A DNA stretch of 64,000 bases from Agromyces mangrovi. GTDB lineage: Bacteria; Actinomycetota; Actinomycetes; Actinomycetales; Microbacteriaceae. Positions 16,920 to 59,217 of this stretch are shown in pieces. Both the position numbers and the translations under genes were made by a program. The stretch spans positions 2,728,001 through 2,792,000 of the forward strand of contig NZ_AP027737.1 in assembly GCF_030296695.1 (NCBI RefSeq), in the 5' to 3' direction. Numbering within the stretch: the first letter of the stretch is position 1; each line of letters opens with the position of its first letter. The notes beneath the pieces were generated by a model, which worked only from the letters and a program-made list of their open reading frames with translations, did no database searches and was not told the DNA's origin.

Positions 16920-19542
16920 CCGCCGCCGCCGCCGTTGGTGCCGTTCCCGTTGCCGGTCCCGCCGCCGTCGTCGTCACCGGGTCCGGTGTCGACGAAGCGG
17001 CCGATCACGATCGTCACGCGCGACCCCTGGCGGGCGTTCTCGCCCCCACTCGGATCCTGCGAGATCACGACGCCGTCCTGCGAGGGATCGGACACGTCCT
17101 CCTCGCGCACGCGCACGTTGTAGCCGTTGAGCTGGTCGCGCGCCGCGTCCTCGGTCATGCCGACGACATTCGGCACGGCGCCGACGTTGCCGTTCGACAC
17201 GTTGACCGTGATCATCGTGCCGCGGCCGGCCTGGCCCTCGGGGCTGATGCTCGAGACGCGGCCCTTGGGCTCGCTCGAGTCCTCCTCGACGCCCGCCTGG
17301 TAGACGAAGCCCGCCTCCTCGAGCGCGGCCTGCGCCGCCTCGGGGGTGAGGCCGATGACCTGCGGAATGTCGATCAGCACCTGCTTGAAGAACTCCGCGT
17401 TGGCCTCGGGGAACGCTTCGCCGCCGTACTTGGCGTCCGCGACCGTCATGATGTCCTTCCACATGCGGTGACGTGCGGTCGCGGCGGGGCCGGAATCCCA
17501 GTAGATGTTGCGCAGGGCGACCTGGCGGCCCGCCGGAGCGGTCACGTGCCCGACCCAGACGGCCGTGGCGACCTTCGTGCTCGCGCCGTTCATCCAGGTG
17601 TCCTTGGAATCGTCGGTCGTTCCGGTCTTGCCGATGTGCGGCACGCCCGAGTAGGTGTTCGACGCGACAGCCGTCCCGTCGCCCGTGAACGTCTCCTGCA
17701 TCGCGTACTGCATCGCTGCGGCGACGTCCGCAGTGACCGACTGGGTGCACTGGGGCTCTGGCGAGTAGATCGCCTCGCCCTCGGCGTCGCGGATCTTCTT
17801 GATGGCGTTCGGCTCGCAGGTCAGCCCATTGTTCGCGATGCCTGCGTACGCCTCGGCCATCGTCAGCGGCGCGATCTCCTGGGTGCCGAGCACATCCGAC
17901 GGGTTCATCTGCAGCGGGTTCCCGTCGGCACGGTGCACGCCGAACGCCTGCGCGGTCTCCTTGACCCCGCAGAGGTCGAGCTGCTGCGCCATGGCCACGA
18001 AGCTCGTGTTCACGGACCACTTGGTCGCGTTGACTGCATTGGTCGCGACGCGCCCGTCGTCGTTCTTCGGATCGAACGAGCCGACGAAGTTGCCGTCACA
18101 CGTGTTGGTGAAGCTCGTGAACGCGCGGCGCTGGCCGTTGAACGACTCCAGCAGCGAGTGACCTTCGTTCAGCCACTCGGCGAGCGTGAACACCTTGTAC
18201 GTCGATCCGGGCTGGAACCCGCTCGATCCGCCGTACTCGTAGTCGGTGTTGTAGTTCACTGCGGAGTACTGCGGGCCCTTCGCGAGCACGCTCGGGTCGT
18301 TCGAGAAGGTCTTGTTCTGGGTCATCGCCAAGATGTCACCCGTACCAGGCTGAACGCTCACCGCGGTCGAACCGACGTCGAATCGCGCATCGACGGACGG
18401 CACGTTTGCCTTCATCGTCGCCACTGCCGCGTTCTGGAGGCTCGTGTCGATGGTGGTGTAGATGTTCAGGCCCCCTTCTGGAGGAGCTGGAGGCCCTCGT
18501 TGACGTCCTCCGTCTCGGGATCGTCGAGCTTGTTCTTGATCTCCCAGGTCACGTAGTCGCAGAAGAACCCGAGGTCGCCCGCCGACTGGCATCCCGTGCT
18601 CGGCTCCGTGATGGTCGGTGCGACGGGCGTCTCGACCGCCTCGTCGTACTCGGCCTGCGTGATCTTCGAGTACTCGAGCATCTCGCCGAGGATGTAGTTG
18701 CGGCGGTCCATGTTCGCCGCGTACGGCACGGACTCACCGTCCGCGTTCACCGTCTCGGCACCGTTGGTCTCGCTGTCGGGGTAGTCTAGTCGGAACTTCT
18801 CGGGGTTGTTGACGATCGCGATCAGGCTCGCCGCCTCGGCGAGCGACAGGTCCTTCGAGGACTTGTCGAAGTAGTACTTCGCCGCCGACTCGATGCCGTA
18901 GACGCGGCCGCCGAAGTGCGCGATGTTCAGGTAGCCGAGCAGCACCTCGTCCTTCGAGAACTGCTTCTCGAGCGAGATCGCGTAGCGGATCTCCTTGAGC
19001 TTGCGCTCGGGGGTGGTCGCGGTCGCCTCCTGGTACGCGGCCTGCTCCTCCTCGGCGGTGGTCGCCTCGGCGATGCCCTGCTGGATGAGCACGTTCTTCA
19101 CGTACTGCTGCGTGATCGAGGACCCGCCCTGCACGTCGCGGTTCAGCACGTAGGTGCTGACCGCACCTCGGATGGTGCCCTGCAGGTCGACGCCGCCGTG
19201 CTCGTAGAAGCGCGGGTCCTCACCGGAGATCGCGGCGTCCTTGACGTACTGGCTGATGTCGTCCCAGGCGACCTCCTCGCGGTTCTGGTCGAAGAACGAG
19301 GCGATGGGCCTCCACTCCTCGCCGTACTTGGCGTAGACGGTCGACTTCTGGGAGAGGTCGTCGATCTCGAGGTACCCGGGGAGGTTCTCGAACATGCTGA
19401 TGGAGCTGTTCGCCGCCATGCCGGTCACGGCGAGGGCAGGGGTCACCGTGGCGGTCACGAGCACACCCGCGAGCGCGCTCAGGCCGAGGAGGCCGAGCAC
19501 GCCTCCGGCGGCACCGCTCAGGGTACGTTTTTGGGCAGACAT
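16916..19542 (-). CDS. Class A penicillin-binding protein with two PASTA domains (apparent frameshift)
   Basis: A bifunctional peptidoglycan synthase. After the N-terminal membrane helix, the glycosyltransferase domain shows SGEDPRFYEHGGVD and GGSSITQQYVKN. The transpeptidase domain shows GSTYKVFTLAEW (SxxK), SVNTSFVAMA (SxN) and IGKTGTTDD (KTG). Two PASTA repeats and a Gly/Asn-rich tail follow. The frame breaks where the genomic C-run at 18471-18475 is one base short; adding it restores LQLLQKGGLNIYTT and a protein of 875 residues. The ATG at 19542 lies 7 nt after TAGGCT on the minus strand (leaderless) and starts MSAQKRTLSG. The PASTA tail suggests control by Ser/Thr kinase signals or muropeptides. 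Confidence 0.95.
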
Positions 19543-20386: not shown

Positions 20387-22339
<1,953 letters not shown>

Positions 22340-22528
22340 GTCGTTCGGTCGCTCCTTCGCGAACGGGGATCATCGGTGGGTTTCGCCTGCCCGGTACGAC
22401 CCTATCCCTCGCGCCACCCGGCTGCGGAATCGTGCAATCTGTCCCCCGAGTGCCTCCGAATCGTGTCCCCCATCTGTGCCTCAGCCCAGAGAAATCTGCA
22501 CGTCCCCACAAATGAGGACAAAAGGTAC

Positions 22529-22556
22529 TTGCGCATGGACTTCTGGCCCCTAAACT
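22529..22556 (+). promoter_or_regulatory. Promoter of the 6C RNA
   Basis: TTGCGC (22529-22534) and TAAACT (22551-22556) are separated by 16 bp and give a sigma70-like promoter predicted to start RNA near 22563. It is the best -35/-10 pair noticed in the window. Confidence 0.7.
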
Positions 22557-22562
22557 GGGGCG

Positions 22563-22663
22563 TGCCTGAACGAGTTTCATGGCCTGCGATGTTGTGATTC
22601 CCCCCAATCGCGCATTGCCGAGGCGGCACCTGTTCCCCCCAATGGGTGCCGCCCCCTCCTTTT
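22563..22663 (+). ncRNA. 6C small RNA
   Basis: Two adjacent stem-loops each show exactly six Cs in the loop, the definition of the actinobacterial 6C RNA. Loop 1 is 22600-22605 between TGTGATT and AATCGCG, extendable to about 22588-22616 with one bulge. Loop 2 is 22635-22640 on a perfect 13-bp stem (22622-22634 with 22641-22653, including two G-U pairs), followed by CCTCCTTTT, so hairpin 2 doubles as the terminator. A promoter lies upstream. In Mycobacterium tuberculosis the 6C RNA (B11) acts by its C-rich loops on G-rich mRNA regions and lies next to a tad-like cluster, as it does here. Confidence 0.92.
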
Positions 22664-22787
22664 AACGGGTCGTGTCGCAACGTGGCGAGCGGGCCCGCAC
22701 TCCTCCACAGGGCTCCCGAGCGGTTCGCGCCGGTCGAGCCCATGATCGGCCGATCGGAACCCCGGCCGACTGCCTACCGTCGTCGGC

Positions 22788-23882
22788 ATGGCGGCACACC
22801 CTCCCACTCCGTACATCGCCCGGCCGTCGTGGTCGGCGCCGGCGTCCCCCGTGCCCGTGCCGGTGCCCGACTCCGGCGGCGCGCTGATGCTGCGTCCCGG
22901 CAGGTACAGCGGTGCGGATGCCTCCCAGGCGACGTGGGCGGCGGAGCCGATCGACCTCGCGGTGCTCGGCCCCCTCGCGCCCCACGCCGAGGGCGCGACG
23001 GACCTCTTCGTCAACGGCGACCGCGGGCTCTGGGTCGACCGCGGTCACGGCATCGTGCGCGACCCGGCATGGGAGGCCGATGAGCGAATGGTGCGCGCGC
23101 TCGCGGTCTCGCTCATCGCGCACGGCGGACGCCACGTCGACGAGGCGACGCCTGCGGTCGATGCGCGCATCGGCGGGGGCATCCGAGTGCACGCCGTGCT
23201 GCCGCCGGTCGCCACCGCCGGCACGCTGATCTCGGTGCGGGTGCCCCGGCACGGTGCGCCGAGCCTCGACGACCTCGTGCGCGGCGGGCTGTGCGACGAA
23301 CCGGTCGCCGACCGGCTGCGCGCGGCCGTTGCCGAGCGCGCGAACCTGCTCGTCACGGGCGCCGCGGGCGCGGGCAAGACCACCCTTCTGGGCGCACTGC
23401 TCGCCGAGGCGCCGGCGGACGAGCGCATCGTGCTCATCGAGGACGTCGCCGAGCTCCGCGTGCGGCACCCGCACGTCGTCGCGCTGCAGGCGCGGCAGGC
23501 GAACCTCGAGGGCGCGGGCGGGGTGGGTCTCGACGCACTGCTGCGCGAGGCCCTGCGGATGCGCCCGGACCGCATCGTCGTCGGCGAGTGCCGCGGGGCG
23601 GAGCTGCGCGAGCTGCTGTCGGCGCTCAACACCGGCCACGACGGCGGGGCGGGCACCCTGCACGCGAACGCGCTCGCCGACGTACCGTCGAGGCTCGAGG
23701 CACTCGGCGCCGCAGCGGGCATGACGCCGGACGCCGTCGCACGGCAGGCCGCGAGCGCGTTCGACCTGGTCGTGCACGTGCAGCGCAGCGCGACGGGCCG
23801 TCGCATCGGCGGTGTGGGGCGACTGCGGTTCGAGGCGGGTCGCCTGCAGGTTGTACCGGTCACGCCCGAGGCGGAATCGTGA
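22788..23882 (+). CDS. TadA/CpaF-type secretion ATPase
   Basis: The cytoplasmic motor of Flp/Tad pilus or secretion systems. The protein has 364 residues, with a short Pro-rich N-terminus and an N-terminal domain, then Walker A GAAGAGKTT, the Asp-box-like VLIEDVAELR, Walker B MRPDRIVVGECRG and the His-box GHDGGAGTLHANA. It is shorter than many CpaF proteins because the N-terminal domain is compact, as in actinobacterial Rv3659c-like ATPases. The ATG lies 7 nt after TACCGT (22775-22780), so probably leaderless. It is first of five overlapping or closely spaced tad genes. The upstream septum-site gene (ssd) found in mycobacteria is absent. Confidence 0.93.
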   Translation: MAAHPPTPYIARPSWSAPASPVPVPVPDSGGALMLRPGRYSGADASQATWAAEPIDLAVLGPLAPHAEGATDLFVNGDRGLWVDRGHGIVRDPAWEADERMVRALAVSLIAHGGRHVDEATPAVDARIGGGIRVHAVLPPVATAGTLISVRVPRHGAPSLDDLVRGGLCDEPVADRLRAAVAERANLLVTGAAGAGKTTLLGALLAEAPADERIVLIEDVAELRVRHPHVVALQARQANLEGAGGVGLDALLREALRMRPDRIVVGECRGAELRELLSALNTGHDGGAGTLHANALADVPSRLEALGAAAGMTPDAVARQAASAFDLVVHVQRSATGRRIGGVGRLRFEAGRLQVVPVTPEAES

Positions 23883-24831
23883 TCGGGGCGTCGTCGCTCG
23901 CGGTGCGGCGGCGGAGGCCCGCGCCGGGCAGCGAGGTCGACGAGGTCGCGGGTATCGCGCATCGGCTCGCGGTGCTGCTCGCGGCGGGCGTCGCGCCGGC
24001 CGCGGCCCTGGCGCACCTCGAGGGCGCCGCTCCGGTCGTGCTCCCACCGGCCGCCGCCGCGGCTCGCTCGGGCGGCGACGTCTCGGGCGCGCTGGTCGCC
24101 TCGGCCGACGGGCTTCCCCGCACTCGCGGCTCGGCTGGCGGGCGATCGCCGCCGGCTGGTCCGTCGCCGAGCGCTCGGGCAGTCCGCTCGCGCAGATGCT
24201 CCGTGACACGTCGACGAGCCTGCGCGACGTCGCCGAGCTCCAGCGCGAACTCGACGCCGCGCTCGCCGGTCCGCGCGCGACCTCGCGCCTCGTCGCGCTG
24301 CTGCCGCCCGTCGGCATCGCCTTCGGCGCCGTGCTCGGCTTCGACACCGTCGGAGTGCTCCTCGGCTCCGCGCTCGGCATCGTGTGCGCGATCGCGGGAG
24401 TCGTGCTGCTCGTCGTGGGGCACGCCTGGAGCCGAGCGCTCGTCGGGCGCGCGGGCCGGCCGGAACCGGCCCCCGGGGTCGCGCTCGACCTGCTCGCGGT
24501 CGCGCTCGCGGGCGGCGCCAGCGTGCCGCGGGCCCGCGAATCCGTGGCATCGGCACTCGACTCCTGCCTGCCCGAGGCGCGCGCCGACGGCGACGCCGAC
24601 GAGGTCGTCGCGCTCAGCCGCCGTGCGGGCGTGCCGGTCGCCGAGCTGCTGCGGGCCGAGGCCCACCGGCGGAGGCTGGCCGCCCGCGGCGCGGGTCGCA
24701 CGCGCGCGGCCTCGCTCGCCGTGCACCTGATGGTGCCGCTCGCGATCTGCACGCTCCCGGCGTTCGTGCTGCTCGGCGTGCTGCCGATGCTCGTGTCCGT
24801 CGTCGCCTCGACGGTCGCGGACCTCGCGTGA
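23879..24831 (+). CDS. TadB/TadC-like type II secretion membrane protein (apparent frameshift)
   Basis: The inner-membrane platform of the Tad system. The GTG start overlaps tadA by GTGA. The first part (AGIAHRLAVLLAAGVAPAAA) is a GspF-like cytoplasmic region. The second part has LLPPVGIAFGAVLGFDTVGV, LLAVALAGGASVPRARESV, and a C-terminal hydrophobic segment ending VASTVADLA. The frame is broken at the C-run 24116-24119; one extra C joins SADGLP to PHSRLGWRAIAAGW and yields 317 residues. Only one platform gene is visible, where other Tad systems have separate TadB and TadC. Confidence 0.88.
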
Positions 24832-24901
24832 GCGTCACGGCCCCCGCACCTGCTCGTGCCACCCGACCGGGCGCCAGCCCGACGAAGAGAGAGGAGAACG
24901 G

Positions 24902-25155
24902 ATGCACGGACACGACGACGGAGGTGCGCCCGGCGGCGGCTCACCCGACGAGCGCGCCCGACACGTCGAGTCGAGGGGCCGCGCCGCGGTCCTGCTGCGG
25001 CGACTCGCGGGGAGCGCGGCGCCGCGACTGCGGAGTACGCGGTCGCGACGATGGCGGCGGTGGGCTTCGCGGGCCTGCTCGTCATCATCCTGCGCGGCGA
25101 CGAGGTGCGCGGCATCCTCACCGACCTCGTGCGCAATGCGCTCACGGTGGGCTGA
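24902..25155 (+). CDS. DUF4244 pilin-like protein (apparent frameshift)
   Basis: A small membrane protein with the core GAATAEYAVATMAAVGFAGL followed by LRGDEVRGILTDLVRNALTVG, typical of DUF4244, the short Flp-pilin-like subunit of actinobacterial tad clusters. GAGAGGAG precedes the ATG at 24902 and decides the start, but that frame leads into the core only if the G-run 25009-25012 has one more G. The restored protein has 84 residues, and the Glu of the AEYAV segment matches the pilin position. In type IV-like pilins such a Glu follows the processing site. Confidence 0.83.
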
Positions 25156-25492
25156 GCTCGCCGGCCGCTCCGACCGGGGGAGCGTGACGGCGGAACTCGC
25201 CGCCGCGCTCCCCGCGGTCGCGCTCGTGCTGGCGATCTGCCTCGGCGGGGTGGCGCTGCTCACCCGGCAGGCGGTGCTGGCCGATGCGGCGGCCGACGCG
25301 TCACGTGCCGTGGCGCGCGGCGAGGCCGACGCCCGCGCCGCCGCGATCATCGCGCGGGTGGCGCCGGGCGCCGGCATCCGACTCGAACGCTCGGACGGGT
25401 TCGTGTGCGTGCACGTGCGCGACCCCGCGCCGGTGGCCCTGCTGCCGCTCGACGCCTCGGCCCGCGCCTGCGCGCTCGAGGGCGGGTGGTGA
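25136..25492 (+). CDS. TadE-like minor pilin/secretion protein
   Basis: A protein of 118 residues starting MRSRWAELAGRSDRG, with the TadE-type helix GSVTAELAAALPAVALVLAI. After the helix come ADAAADASRAVARGE and a C-terminal part with two cysteines. The ATG overlaps the end of the DUF4244 gene by 20 bp; a GTG at 25184 is an alternative. The family contributes pseudopilin-like subunits of the Flp machine. Confidence 0.82.
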   Translation: MRSRWAELAGRSDRGSVTAELAAALPAVALVLAICLGGVALLTRQAVLADAAADASRAVARGEADARAAAIIARVAPGAGIRLERSDGFVCVHVRDPAPVALLPLDASARACALEGGW

Positions 25493-25845
25493 CGATGGGC
25501 GGGAGCGAGCGCGGTGCGGGCTCGGTGCTCGCGCTCGCCGTGGTCGCGGCGACCGTGGCGCTCACCGTGCCGGTGCTCGGCGCCTGCGCGTTGCTGCTCG
25601 GCGGTCAACTCGCGGCGAACGCGGCCGACGCGGCTGCGCTCGCCGCGGCAGACGTCGCGTCGGGCGCATCGCCCGGCGAGCCCTGCGCACGAGCGGTCGA
25701 CGCTGCGGAGCGCAACGGCGCCGTGCTCGAGGCGTGCGCCGTCGACGGTGCGATCGCCGACGTGCGGGCGAGCGTCACCCTCGCGGGCGTCGCCCAGGCC
25801 GCACGGGCCCGGGCCGGGCCGCCGGCTGAGCGACCCGTGCCGTGA
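25489..25845 (+). CDS. TadG/Rv3654c-like secreted protein
   Basis: A protein of 118 residues with an N-terminal hydrophobic helix (VLALAVVAATVALTVPVLGA), then QLAANAADAAALAAADVASG, the pattern of Rv3654c/TadG-like 'helicase/secretion neighbourhood' proteins. Two Cys residues (GEPCARAV, LEACAVDG) may form a disulfide outside the cell. GTG at 25489 overlaps the previous stop (GTGA); ATG at 25495 is the other option. It is last gene of the tad cluster. Confidence 0.8.
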   Translation: MTMGGSERGAGSVLALAVVAATVALTVPVLGACALLLGGQLAANAADAAALAAADVASGASPGEPCARAVDAAERNGAVLEACAVDGAIADVRASVTLAGVAQAARARAGPPAERPVP

Positions 25846-25856
25846 GGTGCTTCAGG

Positions 25857-26096
25857 TCAGTCGAAGACCGTCTCGATGAAGCGATAGGAGACGGACGACG
25901 GACGGTTGGCGTGCTCGGCGTCGAACTCGACACCGGAGCCTCTCGAGTAGACGTAATGCTTGCCACCCGACTCGGCCGGAATCTCCAGCCGGGGGTTCGG
26001 ATCGCCGGAATCGAGGAACGAGACCGTGATGGTCTTGCCCTCCAGCGGCCCGTCGGTCAGCTTCGCCGTGTACGTGCCTGCGGTTGACGTGTCCAT
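25857..26096 (-). CDS. Hypothetical small protein
   Basis: About 79 residues starting MDTSTAGTYTAKLTDGPLEG and ending YRFIETVFD. It is acidic with alternating polar and hydrophobic residues, likely a small beta-rich soluble protein, with no signal peptide. The ATG at 26096 is supported by GACAAT 6 nt upstream on the minus strand (leaderless pattern); an in-frame GTG at 26120 is possible. No family was recognised. It is convergent with the tad cluster and divergent from topA. Confidence 0.7.
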   Translation of the reverse strand: MDTSTAGTYTAKLTDGPLEGKTITVSFLDSGDPNPRLEIPAESGGKHYVYSRGSGVEFDAEHANRPSSVSYRFIETVFD

Positions 26097-26170
26097 GTCG
26101 CCATTGTCCTCCGCCCCCACGAGTCCGCAAGGGGTCGCTCTCGGCGTGTATGTGTATGGTGTGCGATGAA

Positions 26171-26200: not shown

Positions 26201-29022
26201 GTGCCGGGCAAGAAGCTGGTCATCGTCGAGTCGCCGACCAAGATGAAGTCCATCGCCACCTATCTGGGCGAGGGCTACGAGGTGCTGTCCTCGGTCGGTC
26301 ACATCCGCGACCTCGTCGAGCCGAAGAACCTCCCGCCCGAGCTCAAGAAGGGCTCGATGGGCAAGTTCTCCGTGGACGTGGAGAACGGCTTCGAGCCCTA
26401 CTACGTCGTCTCCGACTCCAAGAAGAAGACGGTCGCCGAGCTCAAGCGCGCACTGAAGGGCGCCGACGAACTCCTGCTCGCCACTGATGAGGACCGCGAG
26501 GGCGAGGCCATCGCGTGGCACCTCCTCCAGGAGCTGAAGCCCAAGGTGCCGGTGCGCCGCATGGTCTTCCACGAGATCACGAAGGACGCGATCCTCGCCG
26601 CGAAGGACCACACCCGCGAACTCGACACCGCACTCGTCGACGCGCAGGAGACCCGCCGCATCCTCGACCGCCTCTACGGGTACGAGGTGTCGCCGGTGCT
26701 CTGGCGCAAGGTCGGCCCCGGCCTCTCCGCCGGTCGCGTGCAGTCCGCCGCGACCCGCCTCGTCGTCGAGCGCGAGCGCGAGCGCCTGGCGTTCGTCGCG
26801 GCGTCGTACTGGGACCTGACCGCGACCTTCGCGGAGTCGGATGCACCCGACGCGACCGCGTTCGAGGCGCGCCTGGTGCGCCTCGACGGCGCCCGCGTGG
26901 CGACCGGCCGCGACTTCGACGACGCGGGCCGGCTGAAGAACGACGCGGTCGTCCTCGACGAGGCATCCGCTCGTGCCCTCGCCTCGGCCCTGCGCGCCGA
27001 CACCGTGCCCTCGACCGTCGCGAAGGTCGAGTCGAAGCCGTACTCGCGGAAGCCCGCGGCCCCGTTCACGACCTCGACGCTGCAGCAGGAGGCCGCGCGC
27101 AAGCTGCGGTTCTCGGCCCGCCAGACCATGTCGGTCGCCCAGTCGCTCTACGAGAACGGCTACATCACCTATATGCGCACCGACTCGCCGTCGCTGTCCA
27201 AGCAGGCGACGGATGCGGCGCGGGCGCAGGCCGTCGCCCTCTACGGCGCCGACTCCATCCCGTCGTCGCCGCGCGTGTACAAGGGCAAGAGCAAGAACGC
27301 GCAGGAGGCGCACGAGGCGATCCGCCCGTCGGGCGACACGTTCCGCACGCCGGCCTCGCTCCAGTCGACGCTGCGCGGCAACGACTTCAAGCTGTACGAC
27401 CTCATCTGGAAGCGCACGGTCGCCTCGCAGATGGCCGATGCGAAGGGCAAGACGGCATCGCTCACGATCGCGGTCGGCCCGACGGCGGCCGACACCGCGG
27501 TGGCGGCGGATGCCCCGGAGACGACCACCGCCCGCCCCGACATCGCGAACGCGACGGCCGAGTTCAGCGCGAGCGGCACCGTCATCACCTTCCGCGGCTT
27601 CCTCGCCGCCTACGAGGAGGGCAAGGACGAGGAGCGCAACGCCGACGAGGGCGGCAAGAACGCGAAGCTCCCGCCGCTCGAGGAGGGCCAGGTCATCGCG
27701 CTGGCGAACCTCGAGTCGAAGGACCACGAGACCAGCCCGCCGCCGCGCTACACCGAGGCGAGCCTCGTGAAGCGGCTCGAGGAGCTCGGCATCGGCCGCC
27801 CGTCGACCTTCGCGTCGATCATCTCGACCATCGTCGACCGCGGCTACGTGACGCCGCGCGGCCAGGCGCTCGTGCCGAACTGGATCGCCTTCTCGGTCGT
27901 GCGCCTGCTCGAGGAGCACTTCACCGACCTCGTGCAGTACGACTTCACCGCCGAGATGGAGGAGGACCTCGACCGCATCGCGGGCGGCGACGCCGACCGC
28001 GTCGACTGGCTCAAGGGCTTCTACTTCGGCACCGACGACTACCTCGGGCTCCGCCAGATCATCGACAACCTGGGCGACATCGACGCGCGCAGCATCAACT
28101 CGATCCCGATCGCCGACGACATCACGCTGCGCATCGGGCGTTACGGCCCGTACCTCGAGACGCCCGACACCGAGGGCGGGCCGGATGCCACGCCCAGGCG
28201 CGTCAACATCCCCGCCGAGCTCGCGCCGGACGAGCTCACCGAGGCGAAGGCGCGCGAACTCGTCGACGCGCCCGTGCAGGGCGACCTCGTGCTGGGTGTG
28301 AACCCGGAGAACGGCAAGCAGGTGGTGGCGAAGGACGGCCGCTTCGGCCCGTACGTGACGGAGCTCGAGCCGGAGCCCGAGGCGACCCCGAGGCATCCGT
28401 CGACCCGAAGACCGGCGAGGTCACCGAGGCGCCGAAGAGGAAGCCGGCGAAGAAGGCCGCGGCGCCCAAGCCGCGCACGGCCTCGCTGTTCAAGTCGATG
28501 GACCTCGCCACGATCGACCTCGACACCGCGCTGCGCCTGCTCGACCTGCCGCGCACCGTGGGCGAGGACCCGGAGTCGGGCGACGCGATCACCGCGCAGA
28601 ACGGTCGCTACGGGCCCTACCTCAAGAAGGGCACCGACACGCGCTCGCTGCCGAGCGAGGACGCGATCTTCGACATCGACCTCGCCGGGGCGCTCGAGCT
28701 GTACGCGCAGCCGAAGTACGGCAACCGTCGGGCGTCGAGCGCGCTCAAGGAGTTCGACGCCGACCCCGTGAGCGGCAAGCCGATCAAGGTGAAGGACGGC
28801 CGCTTCGGGCCGTACGTGACCGACGGCACGACCAACGCGACGATCCCGCGCGGCGACACCGTGGAGGACATCACGTTCGAGCGCGCCGCCGAGCTGCTGC
28901 AGATCAAGCGCGACAAGGGCCCGGCGAAGCCGCGCACCTCGCGTGCGAGCACCGCGAAGAAGGCGCCGGCGAAGAAGAAGGCGCCGGCCAAGAAGCCCGC
29001 GGCCAAGAAGTCCTCGTCGTGA
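26201..29022 (+). CDS. topA: DNA topoisomerase I (apparent frameshift near C-terminus)
   Basis: It relaxes negative supercoils. The TOPRIM domain has LVIVESPTKMKSIATYLG and ATDEDREGEAIAWH. The active-site Tyr is in YITYMRTDS. C-terminal repeats of the GRFGPYV/GRYGPYL type and a Lys/Ala tail (KKAPAKKKAPAKKPAAKK) follow, as in other actinobacterial TopA. The frame breaks at the C-run 28386-28389; one added C gives ATPEASVDPKTGEV and 940 residues. GTG at 26201 was chosen because AAAGGAG lies 6 nt upstream. Because the gene is essential, the frameshift is best read as a sequence error. It overlaps tmk by GTGA. Confidence 0.96.
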
Positions 29023-58929: not shown

Positions 58930-59002
58930 GTCCCGTTTCCGTCCTCGCGGACTCCGGGGCTCGGCAACGCCGATCAGGCCGCCGGCGCGGACGCCTGCGG
59001 CA

Positions 59003-59141
59003 CGTGCTGCCTCCCATCCGGACTTTCACCGTCGGTACCGGAATTCCACCGGTTCGGCCTCGCACCCGATCCAGTGGAGATCGAGTGCTCGGTTCGCGGA
59101 CTGTCACCGCCGGCTCGGACTTTCACCGACCCCGGAGCACG
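59003..59141 (-). promoter_or_regulatory. FMN riboswitch (RFN element)
   Basis: Closing stem CGTGCT (59136-59141 region) pairs with AGCACG (59003-59008). The core contains two GGTGAAAGTCCG-type segments, GACAGTCCG, and GGATGGGAGG, the hallmarks of the RFN element. About 75 nt separate it from ribD and could hold the expression platform. Minus-strand TACACT at 59155-59160 is a candidate -10. Confidence 0.95.
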
Positions 59142-59217
59142 TTTTCTTGCTTCGAGTGTAGATCAACGCACGCGCACGCGTGCTATTCCCGGGCCGGGCC
59201 CCGGCGCACCGCGCGGC

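Follow-up and report, generated by a model that had tools for sequence, protein, structure and literature searches.

A 6C small RNA at a conserved chromosomal place beside the tad pilus cluster of Agromyces mangrovi

We analyzed a stretch of 64,000 nucleotides from Agromyces mangrovi (Microbacteriaceae; contig NZ_AP027737.1, positions 2,728,001 to 2,792,000; hereafter the window), in which a small RNA (sRNA) of the 6C type is encoded between acs and a tad/Flp pilus cluster, and found it to be a new member of a known, poorly understood sRNA class. We think it probable that this is a trans-acting sRNA with its own promoter and terminator, situated at its ancestral place beside a separately promoted tad cluster. 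A sigma-70-like promoter would drive the RNA by itself, and transcription would stop at a dedicated terminator whose hairpin would also provide the second C-loop. The exposed UUCCCCCCAA loops would base-pair with G-rich segments of mRNAs, in or close to their ribosome sites, leading to repression of translation. The position between acs and tad would be the ancestral chromosomal place, and the tad operon would be driven by its own promoter immediately before a leaderless tadA. The identity and structure of the RNA, the separate sequence signals, and the linkage with its exceptions are documented here. The RNA gene comprises the following features, in window coordinates:

22529-22556, plus strand: 6C promoter, with −35 box TTGCGC (22529-22534), 16-nt spacer and −10 box TAAACT (22551-22556) (sequence, genus conservation, family motif)
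22564-22664, plus strand: 6C small RNA, predicted length about 100 nt (RF01066 match, family model R1, fold z-score −5.86)
22564-22583, plus strand: small 5′ hairpin outside the Rfam model (minimum free energy and centroid structures)
22586-22618, plus strand: hairpin 1, CCCCCC loop at 22600-22605, closed by an upper stem of GAUU/AAUC type (sequence, fold)
22622-22653, plus strand: hairpin 2, the intrinsic terminator stem, CCCCCC loop at 22635-22640 (fold, terminator scan)
22660-22663, plus strand: terminal U-run (sequence, terminator scan)

Three hairpins are present in the RNA, the last being the intrinsic terminator, and two of them have exactly six cytosines in the loop, in agreement with a preliminary description of the locus. 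The predicted fold of the 101-nt sequence (−42.3 kcal/mol, z-score −5.86) was equalled by none of 200 dinucleotide shuffles. The same description had proposed a search with the Rfam covariance model RF01066. In a 401-base search at an E-value threshold, the model matched over its full length (positions 1-75 of 75) at 22585-22657 with E = 8.5e-4, and the score of 39.1 bits stayed under the gathering cut-off of 47, which is an annotation threshold and no structural criterion. The two stem-loops with at least six C per loop that RF01066 requires were found in the window RNA, as was a location shared with accepted members, 5′ of tadA in the family and the class. In a search of 60 relatives, RF01066 matched all 37 genomes of the genus, our own included, with best scores of 35.5-47.4 bits; three of these genomes (G003, G024 and G030) exceed the cut-off, with up to 47.4 bits, and their loci (L005-L007) align with that of the window. 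R1, a model that we built from 72 family sequences and whose E-values are rough, gave 99.2 bits for the window RNA, which is itself part of the training set. Because of the full-length match, the predicted fold and the genus matches over the cut-off, we file the sequence as a 6C RNA although the annotation threshold is not reached. The earlier identification is thereby upheld by the full-length match, by genus orthologs over the cut-off and by covarying hairpins. An Rfam search of 22300-22600 returned no known RNA between acs and 6C, and a plasmid collection searched with the locus gave no match.

Covariation was examined in Microbacteriaceae, where 73 loci were collected and 72 aligned (L073 was left out); an unlinked paralog-like element (L070) and a probable false match (L080) had been dropped before the loop statistics. 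The structure computed with RNAalifold from the 72 sequences shows double changes at 15 of 18 pairs. In a 22-pair structure, 97.0% of cells are paired, compared with 89.6% in shuffles, and double changes occur at 18 of the 22 tested pairs (shuffle mean 6.6). None of 500 shuffles reached any of the five measures, and sliding the partner columns by 1-3 lowered pairing to 33-53%. In the lower stem of hairpin 1, double changes affect every one of the seven pairs, and in the main helix of hairpin 2 eight of the ten; the four pairs of the hairpin 1 upper stem (GAUU/AAUC) are nearly fixed, each being identical in 63-66 of the 72 sequences. The loops are near-fixed as UUCCCCCCAA in Microbacteriaceae: UU and AA flank the C-run in 62 of 73 loci for loop 1 and in 59 of 73 for loop 2, and the C-run is six long in 60/73 and 61/73, respectively. 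The fixed letters of loop flanks and upper stem would appear to be read by something, because structure alone would leave them free.

A rare variant with shorter loops accompanies this pattern; the near-fixed UUCCCCCCAA loops and the variant are new in this analysis. In two genera (G062, locus L098; G078, locus L085), the gap between acs and tadA holds a 6C RNA with both loops cut to four C, scoring 44.2 and 28.4 bits with R1; a scan for hairpins had overlooked both. A search for the hairpin 2 sequence of this 4C variant with up to two mismatches found it in 2 of 398 family genomes, the same two. Short C-runs tend to co-occur in both loops (Fisher P = 0.047 for the 73 loci, 0.006 when the two 4C loci are added), a test that ignores relatedness and is taken as a lead only. 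Separately, one genus carries an element that has two GUUCCCCCCAAC loops and, after them, a separate hairpin (L070 on G090:C45; L146 on G163:C5), with no TadA match nearby; in its sequence, it resembles a second C-loop RNA.

We infer that the RNA is expressed in A. mangrovi and that it pairs with and represses mRNAs; trans-pairing by the C-loops is our best guess for its mode of action. The same mode is proposed here because the loops are the same as in mycobacterial 6C/B11. In mycobacteria, pairing of C-loops with G-rich 5′ regions is backed by compensatory mutations (PMC10470900, PMC12395582): in Mycobacterium abscessus, repression by the B11 loops acts through the ribosome site of eccB4, as compensatory mutations support (PMC10470900), and in M. 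marinum, loop 3 of 6C pairs with pks5 (PMC12395582). It is unlikely, in our estimate, that the C-loops serve mainly to bind a protein, or some other fixed partner, with mRNA pairing secondary, a proposal that is compatible with trans action. A fixed partner would explain the conservation of 6C across species with differing targets, and the near-fixed upper stem above freely covarying lower pairs, the flanks common to both loops and the joint change of both loops to C4 in two genera are consistent with it; an as yet unknown core function, possibly protein binding, has been put forward (PMC12395582). Against this, the two 4C genera may represent a single evolutionary event, and the pairing mechanism has experimental support in mycobacteria. 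More specifically, and still doubtful, both loops in Microbacteriaceae may be recognized as the fixed decamer UUCCCCCCAA by a single common partner, either a protein or a conserved core target, in a core function independent of tad and of the species-specific mRNA targets known from mycobacteria. If so, the common reader would hold the upper stem of hairpin 1 constant and cause the two loops to vary in concert, as in the 4C genera. The RNA is widespread in Actinobacteria, and its conservation despite differing targets is an open question (PMC12395582). Concrete handles on a core role of 6C in soil bacteria come from its alignment across the family, its apparent uncoupling from tad, the 4C variant and the loop flanks that hardly vary.

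The signals for separate transcription were then considered. Both promoter boxes are kept in 23 aligned genus loci, and a TTG..-TANNNT pattern lies 5′ of 6C in 49 of 73 family loci, compared with 1.5% of shuffles. A generic promoter scan found nothing at 6C, TTGCGC-16 nt-TAAACT being too weak for it; of the "good promoter" described earlier, the boxes and their conservation in genus and family thus stand, below the detection level of a generic scan. Hairpin 2 followed by CCCTCCTTTT is the single terminator-like site in 22340-22790 (shuffle mean 0.2), which matches the terminal T-run noted before. Two further repeats were seen at the locus. An inverted repeat, GTCC-N-GGAC, at 22502-22519, 5′ of the −35 box and within a genus-conserved block, is a possible regulator site; among the 73 family loci, 11 carry a related (T/G)GTC-N10-14-GGAC sequence 5′ of 6C, four of these in the own genus, compared with 1.7% of shuffles. 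By eye, a second inverted repeat, CCTCCTCCACAACG..CGTGG.GGAGG, is conserved 3′ of the terminator in the genus (e.g. L005, L020, L030), and it is absent or changed in our own genome.

To the 3′ side lies the tad cluster, and to the 5′ side acs:

20387-22339, minus strand: acs, acetate-CoA ligase gene, divergent upstream neighbor (TIGR02188, 955.2 bits)
22775-22780, plus strand: presumed −10 box of tadA, TACCGT, 7 nt 5′ of the ATG at 22788 (genus alignment, family motif)
22788-23882, plus strand: tadA, TadA-family ATPase gene of an actinobacterial tad cluster (TIGR03819, 390.6 bits, cut-off 373.15)
25176-25182, plus strand: GGGGGAG, proposed 6C target, within the coding sequence of the TadE motif RGSVTAE (sequence, translation)

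The linkage of 6C to tad is real and old. Among 150 genomes of the family, RF01066 matched 94 at E ≤ 0.05, of which just five pass the Rfam cut-off, and TadA matches were found in 149 at E ≤ 1e-40. For at least 90 of the 98 family matches to RF01066, TadA follows 3′ in the same orientation and no more than 12 kb away, with a median distance of 310 bp and distances of up to 6.3 kb. Even in genomes without an Rfam match, the gap from acs to tadA can contain a clear 6C: 28 tadA loci from such genomes were fetched (L083-L110), and 15 were taken into the collection by eye. R1 matched 128 of the 150 genomes at E ≤ 0.05, a count that partly reflects its training set, which has one locus from many genera. 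Strong R1 matches (at least 34 bits, a threshold set by eye, one per genome) numbered 119, and TadA is downstream in at least 109 of them. The preliminary description had suggested checking the linkage across Microbacteriaceae and had counted its absence in relatives as a refutation; the linkage is present. Throughout L031-L110, acs on the minus strand 5′ of 6C and topA on the plus strand 3′ of tadA keep the same side and strand wherever they were found.

Beyond the family, the class counts rest on RF01066, whose stricter filter misses weak members, because outside Microbacteriaceae no R1 match in the class set scored above 31.7 bits, under the 34-bit threshold. RF01066 matched 115 of 197 class genomes at E ≤ 0.02, and TadA lies within 12 kb 3′ of at least 95 of 118 matches (median 1305 bp). 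Further linked class loci beyond the listed rows are L129, L138, L142 and L143, and the linkage in G000, G004, G007 and G137 is evident from the family matches. In 10 of the 33 class loci read, mostly stretches of 4-5 kb, acs is 5′ of 6C. Exceptions are G257, where TadA is upstream on the opposite strand, and G256; in addition, the stretches read around 6C in G306 and around second 6C copies in G308 and G235 (L133, L134) contain no TadA.

We consider it quite unlikely that this linkage reflects coupling, in which tad mRNAs would be bound at G-rich sites by the C-loops, pilus expression would be set in this way and the genes would stay together for that reason, as the preliminary description had suggested. 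The strong linkage in family and class speaks for coupling, as does an excess of runs of at least five G on the sense strand of tad, unlike in topA and acs. The conserved order is, however, not special to tad, because acs and topA keep it too, and the start of tadA probably offers little to pair with. The TANNNT box just 5′ of the tadA ATG was seen by eye in 20 of 23 genus loci, and of 65 loci in the family where a tadA match lies no more than 1.2 kb from 6C, 50 have TANNNT 5-9 nt 5′ of an in-frame ATG or GTG, compared with 4.7% of shuffled controls. A −10 box just before the start codon is a mark of leaderless mRNA in actinobacterial promoters. The tadA mRNA is thus probably leaderless with its own promoter, and therefore would have no ribosome site for 6C to cover, so that the proposed pairing with tad ribosome sites finds little footing.

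The GGGGGAG sequence that had been placed near 25175 is indeed present, at 25176-25182, where it codes for Arg-Gly of the TadE motif. As a 6C target it was rejected: GGGG is found in 11 of 31 relatives with the motif, and GGGGG in two of these. Furthermore, 6C and TadA appear to have been lost independently. The highest R1 score in the family set, 121.6 bits, belongs to the 6C of G119, which lies next to a tadA reduced to a 236-aa fragment; the 11.7 kb read there gave no TadB or TopA match, the TadE query being too weak to judge, and the genome as a whole has three TadA-type matches (best E 5.5e-80). G256 keeps 6C (51.6 bits in the RF01066 class search) and shows no TadA at E ≤ 1e-80 genome-wide and none in the stretch read at 6C. 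Conversely, 22 of the 150 family genomes lack an R1 match. Completeness is 90% or higher in 17 of the 20 that were listed, and TadA was matched in each of these 17. The contig of G113, one of the 17, stops immediately 5′ of tadA (L095), and since the R1 filter is strict, others of the 17 may carry a diverged 6C; in the gaps of eight (L084, L089, L092, L103, L104, L107, L108, L109), no paired C-loop hairpins were found. Collectively, these observations suggest that 6C and tad are neighbors rather than partners, and the two are probably not functionally coupled.

Action in cis, with 6C as a leader or attenuator of the tad operon and regulated read-through from the 6C promoter past the terminator into tadA, seems very improbable. 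Rfam types RF01066 as Cis-reg, and the distance to tadA is short in the family, with a median of about 300 bp; these points are opposed by the U-tailed terminator after 6C, the separate −10 box at tadA, distances of up to 6.3 kb in the family with a class median of 1.3 kb, and 6C copies without TadA in the stretch read (L133, L134). B11 and Rv3660c are not co-transcribed in M. tuberculosis, where reverse transcription polymerase chain reaction gave no product spanning the two (PMC2764107).

Several findings count against a separately transcribed, trans-acting 6C. The Rfam scan at the gathering threshold reported no 6C at the locus (39.1 bits, cut-off 47). By the patterns used, 24 of 73 family loci lack the 6C promoter and 15 of 65 lack the −10 box of tadA. 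The sequence GGGGGG-N3-9-ATG occurs at 16 sites in the own genome (control 3), most of which, by eye, do not look like gene starts; two of the 16 openings resembled true ones (L161, L163). For the MaoC-like gene of L163, 36 matches were obtained and 30 loci fetched, of which L199 was unreadable; the G6 is kept in 3 of the 29 genus loci read, and the gene was rejected as a core target. With most sites not resembling gene starts and the followed site not conserved, GGGGGG-N3-9-ATG sites as core 6C targets were likewise discarded. Finally, the tad region of 36 loci (128,895 nt) has 181 runs of at least five G on the sense strand vs. 92 on the antisense strand (topA, 6 vs. 26; acs, 20 vs. 64 in the same comparison), and low-affinity pairing of 6C inside tad coding regions is possible; runs of at least six G are not enriched (14 sense, 13 antisense), and the excess may be explained by codon use of weakly expressed genes.

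As for the cluster itself, tadA starts about 125 bp 3′ of the 6C terminator and ssd is missing at the locus, both as described earlier: no TIGR03815 match over the cut-off of 154.45 was found genome-wide. The best, 39.2 bits, belongs to a CpaE-like ATPase at a second tad-like locus (L151, G000:C1:2070117-2072236), where it is followed by a TadA-like ATPase. The TadA ATPase scores over the TIGR03819 cut-off, the criterion for an actinobacterial tad cluster; TadE was recognized by NF041390 (55.4 bits, cut-off 40), and an Rv3654c-like protein scored 48.3 bits, just below its cut-off of 50.95. The genes tadB (about 24110-24140), flp (about 25010-25025), topA (about 28360-28400) and a PBP1-like gene (18466-18592) each appear split over two frames; assembly indels seem likelier than decay, because topA is normally essential. 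Completeness of the genome is 95.35% and contamination 4.41%. Between tad and topA, a small conserved protein is encoded at 25857-26117 on the minus strand, with 193 relatives; those named among the matches listed are from Microbacteriaceae such as Agromyces, and no Pfam domain is listed. An FMN riboswitch (87 bits) lies at 59000-59144 on the minus strand.

The original 6C paper reportedly placed the RNA near partitioning and pilus genes, and the linkage itself is therefore probably not new. In a search that was thin on subscription papers, we found, among the papers listed, no account of the 6C-pilus linkage and no literature on 6C RNA in Microbacteriaceae; the 6C passages of PMC5784534 do not concern linkage. 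Extra 6C copies have already been published (PMC9569102), and a conserved position of 6C near Ms1 has been described for mycobacteria and Streptomyces coelicolor (PMC6582537).

Compared with known systems, the window RNA resembles RF01066 6C RNA in its two six-C-loop hairpins, the second of them the terminator, in its place 5′ of an actinobacterial tad cluster and in the full-length match, whereas it differs in its score of 39.1 bits under 47 and in the UU/AA loop flanks, with 5 of 150 family genomes passing the cut-off. Like B11/6C of M. tuberculosis (Rv3660c-Rv3661), it is a C-loop sRNA with a SigA-like promoter and its own terminator, and B11 lies beside Rv3660c (PMC2764107, PMC12395582); unlike B11, it has no ssd between itself and tadA and has acs immediately upstream. 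The pilus genes share with the actinobacterial tad/Flp cluster (TIGR03819 neighborhood) a TadA and a TadE (NF041390) over the cut-offs, and depart from it in that the own genome has no CpaE/ssd (TIGR03815) over the cut-off, the Rv3654c-like protein stays under its cut-off, and tadB and flp each appear split over two frames.

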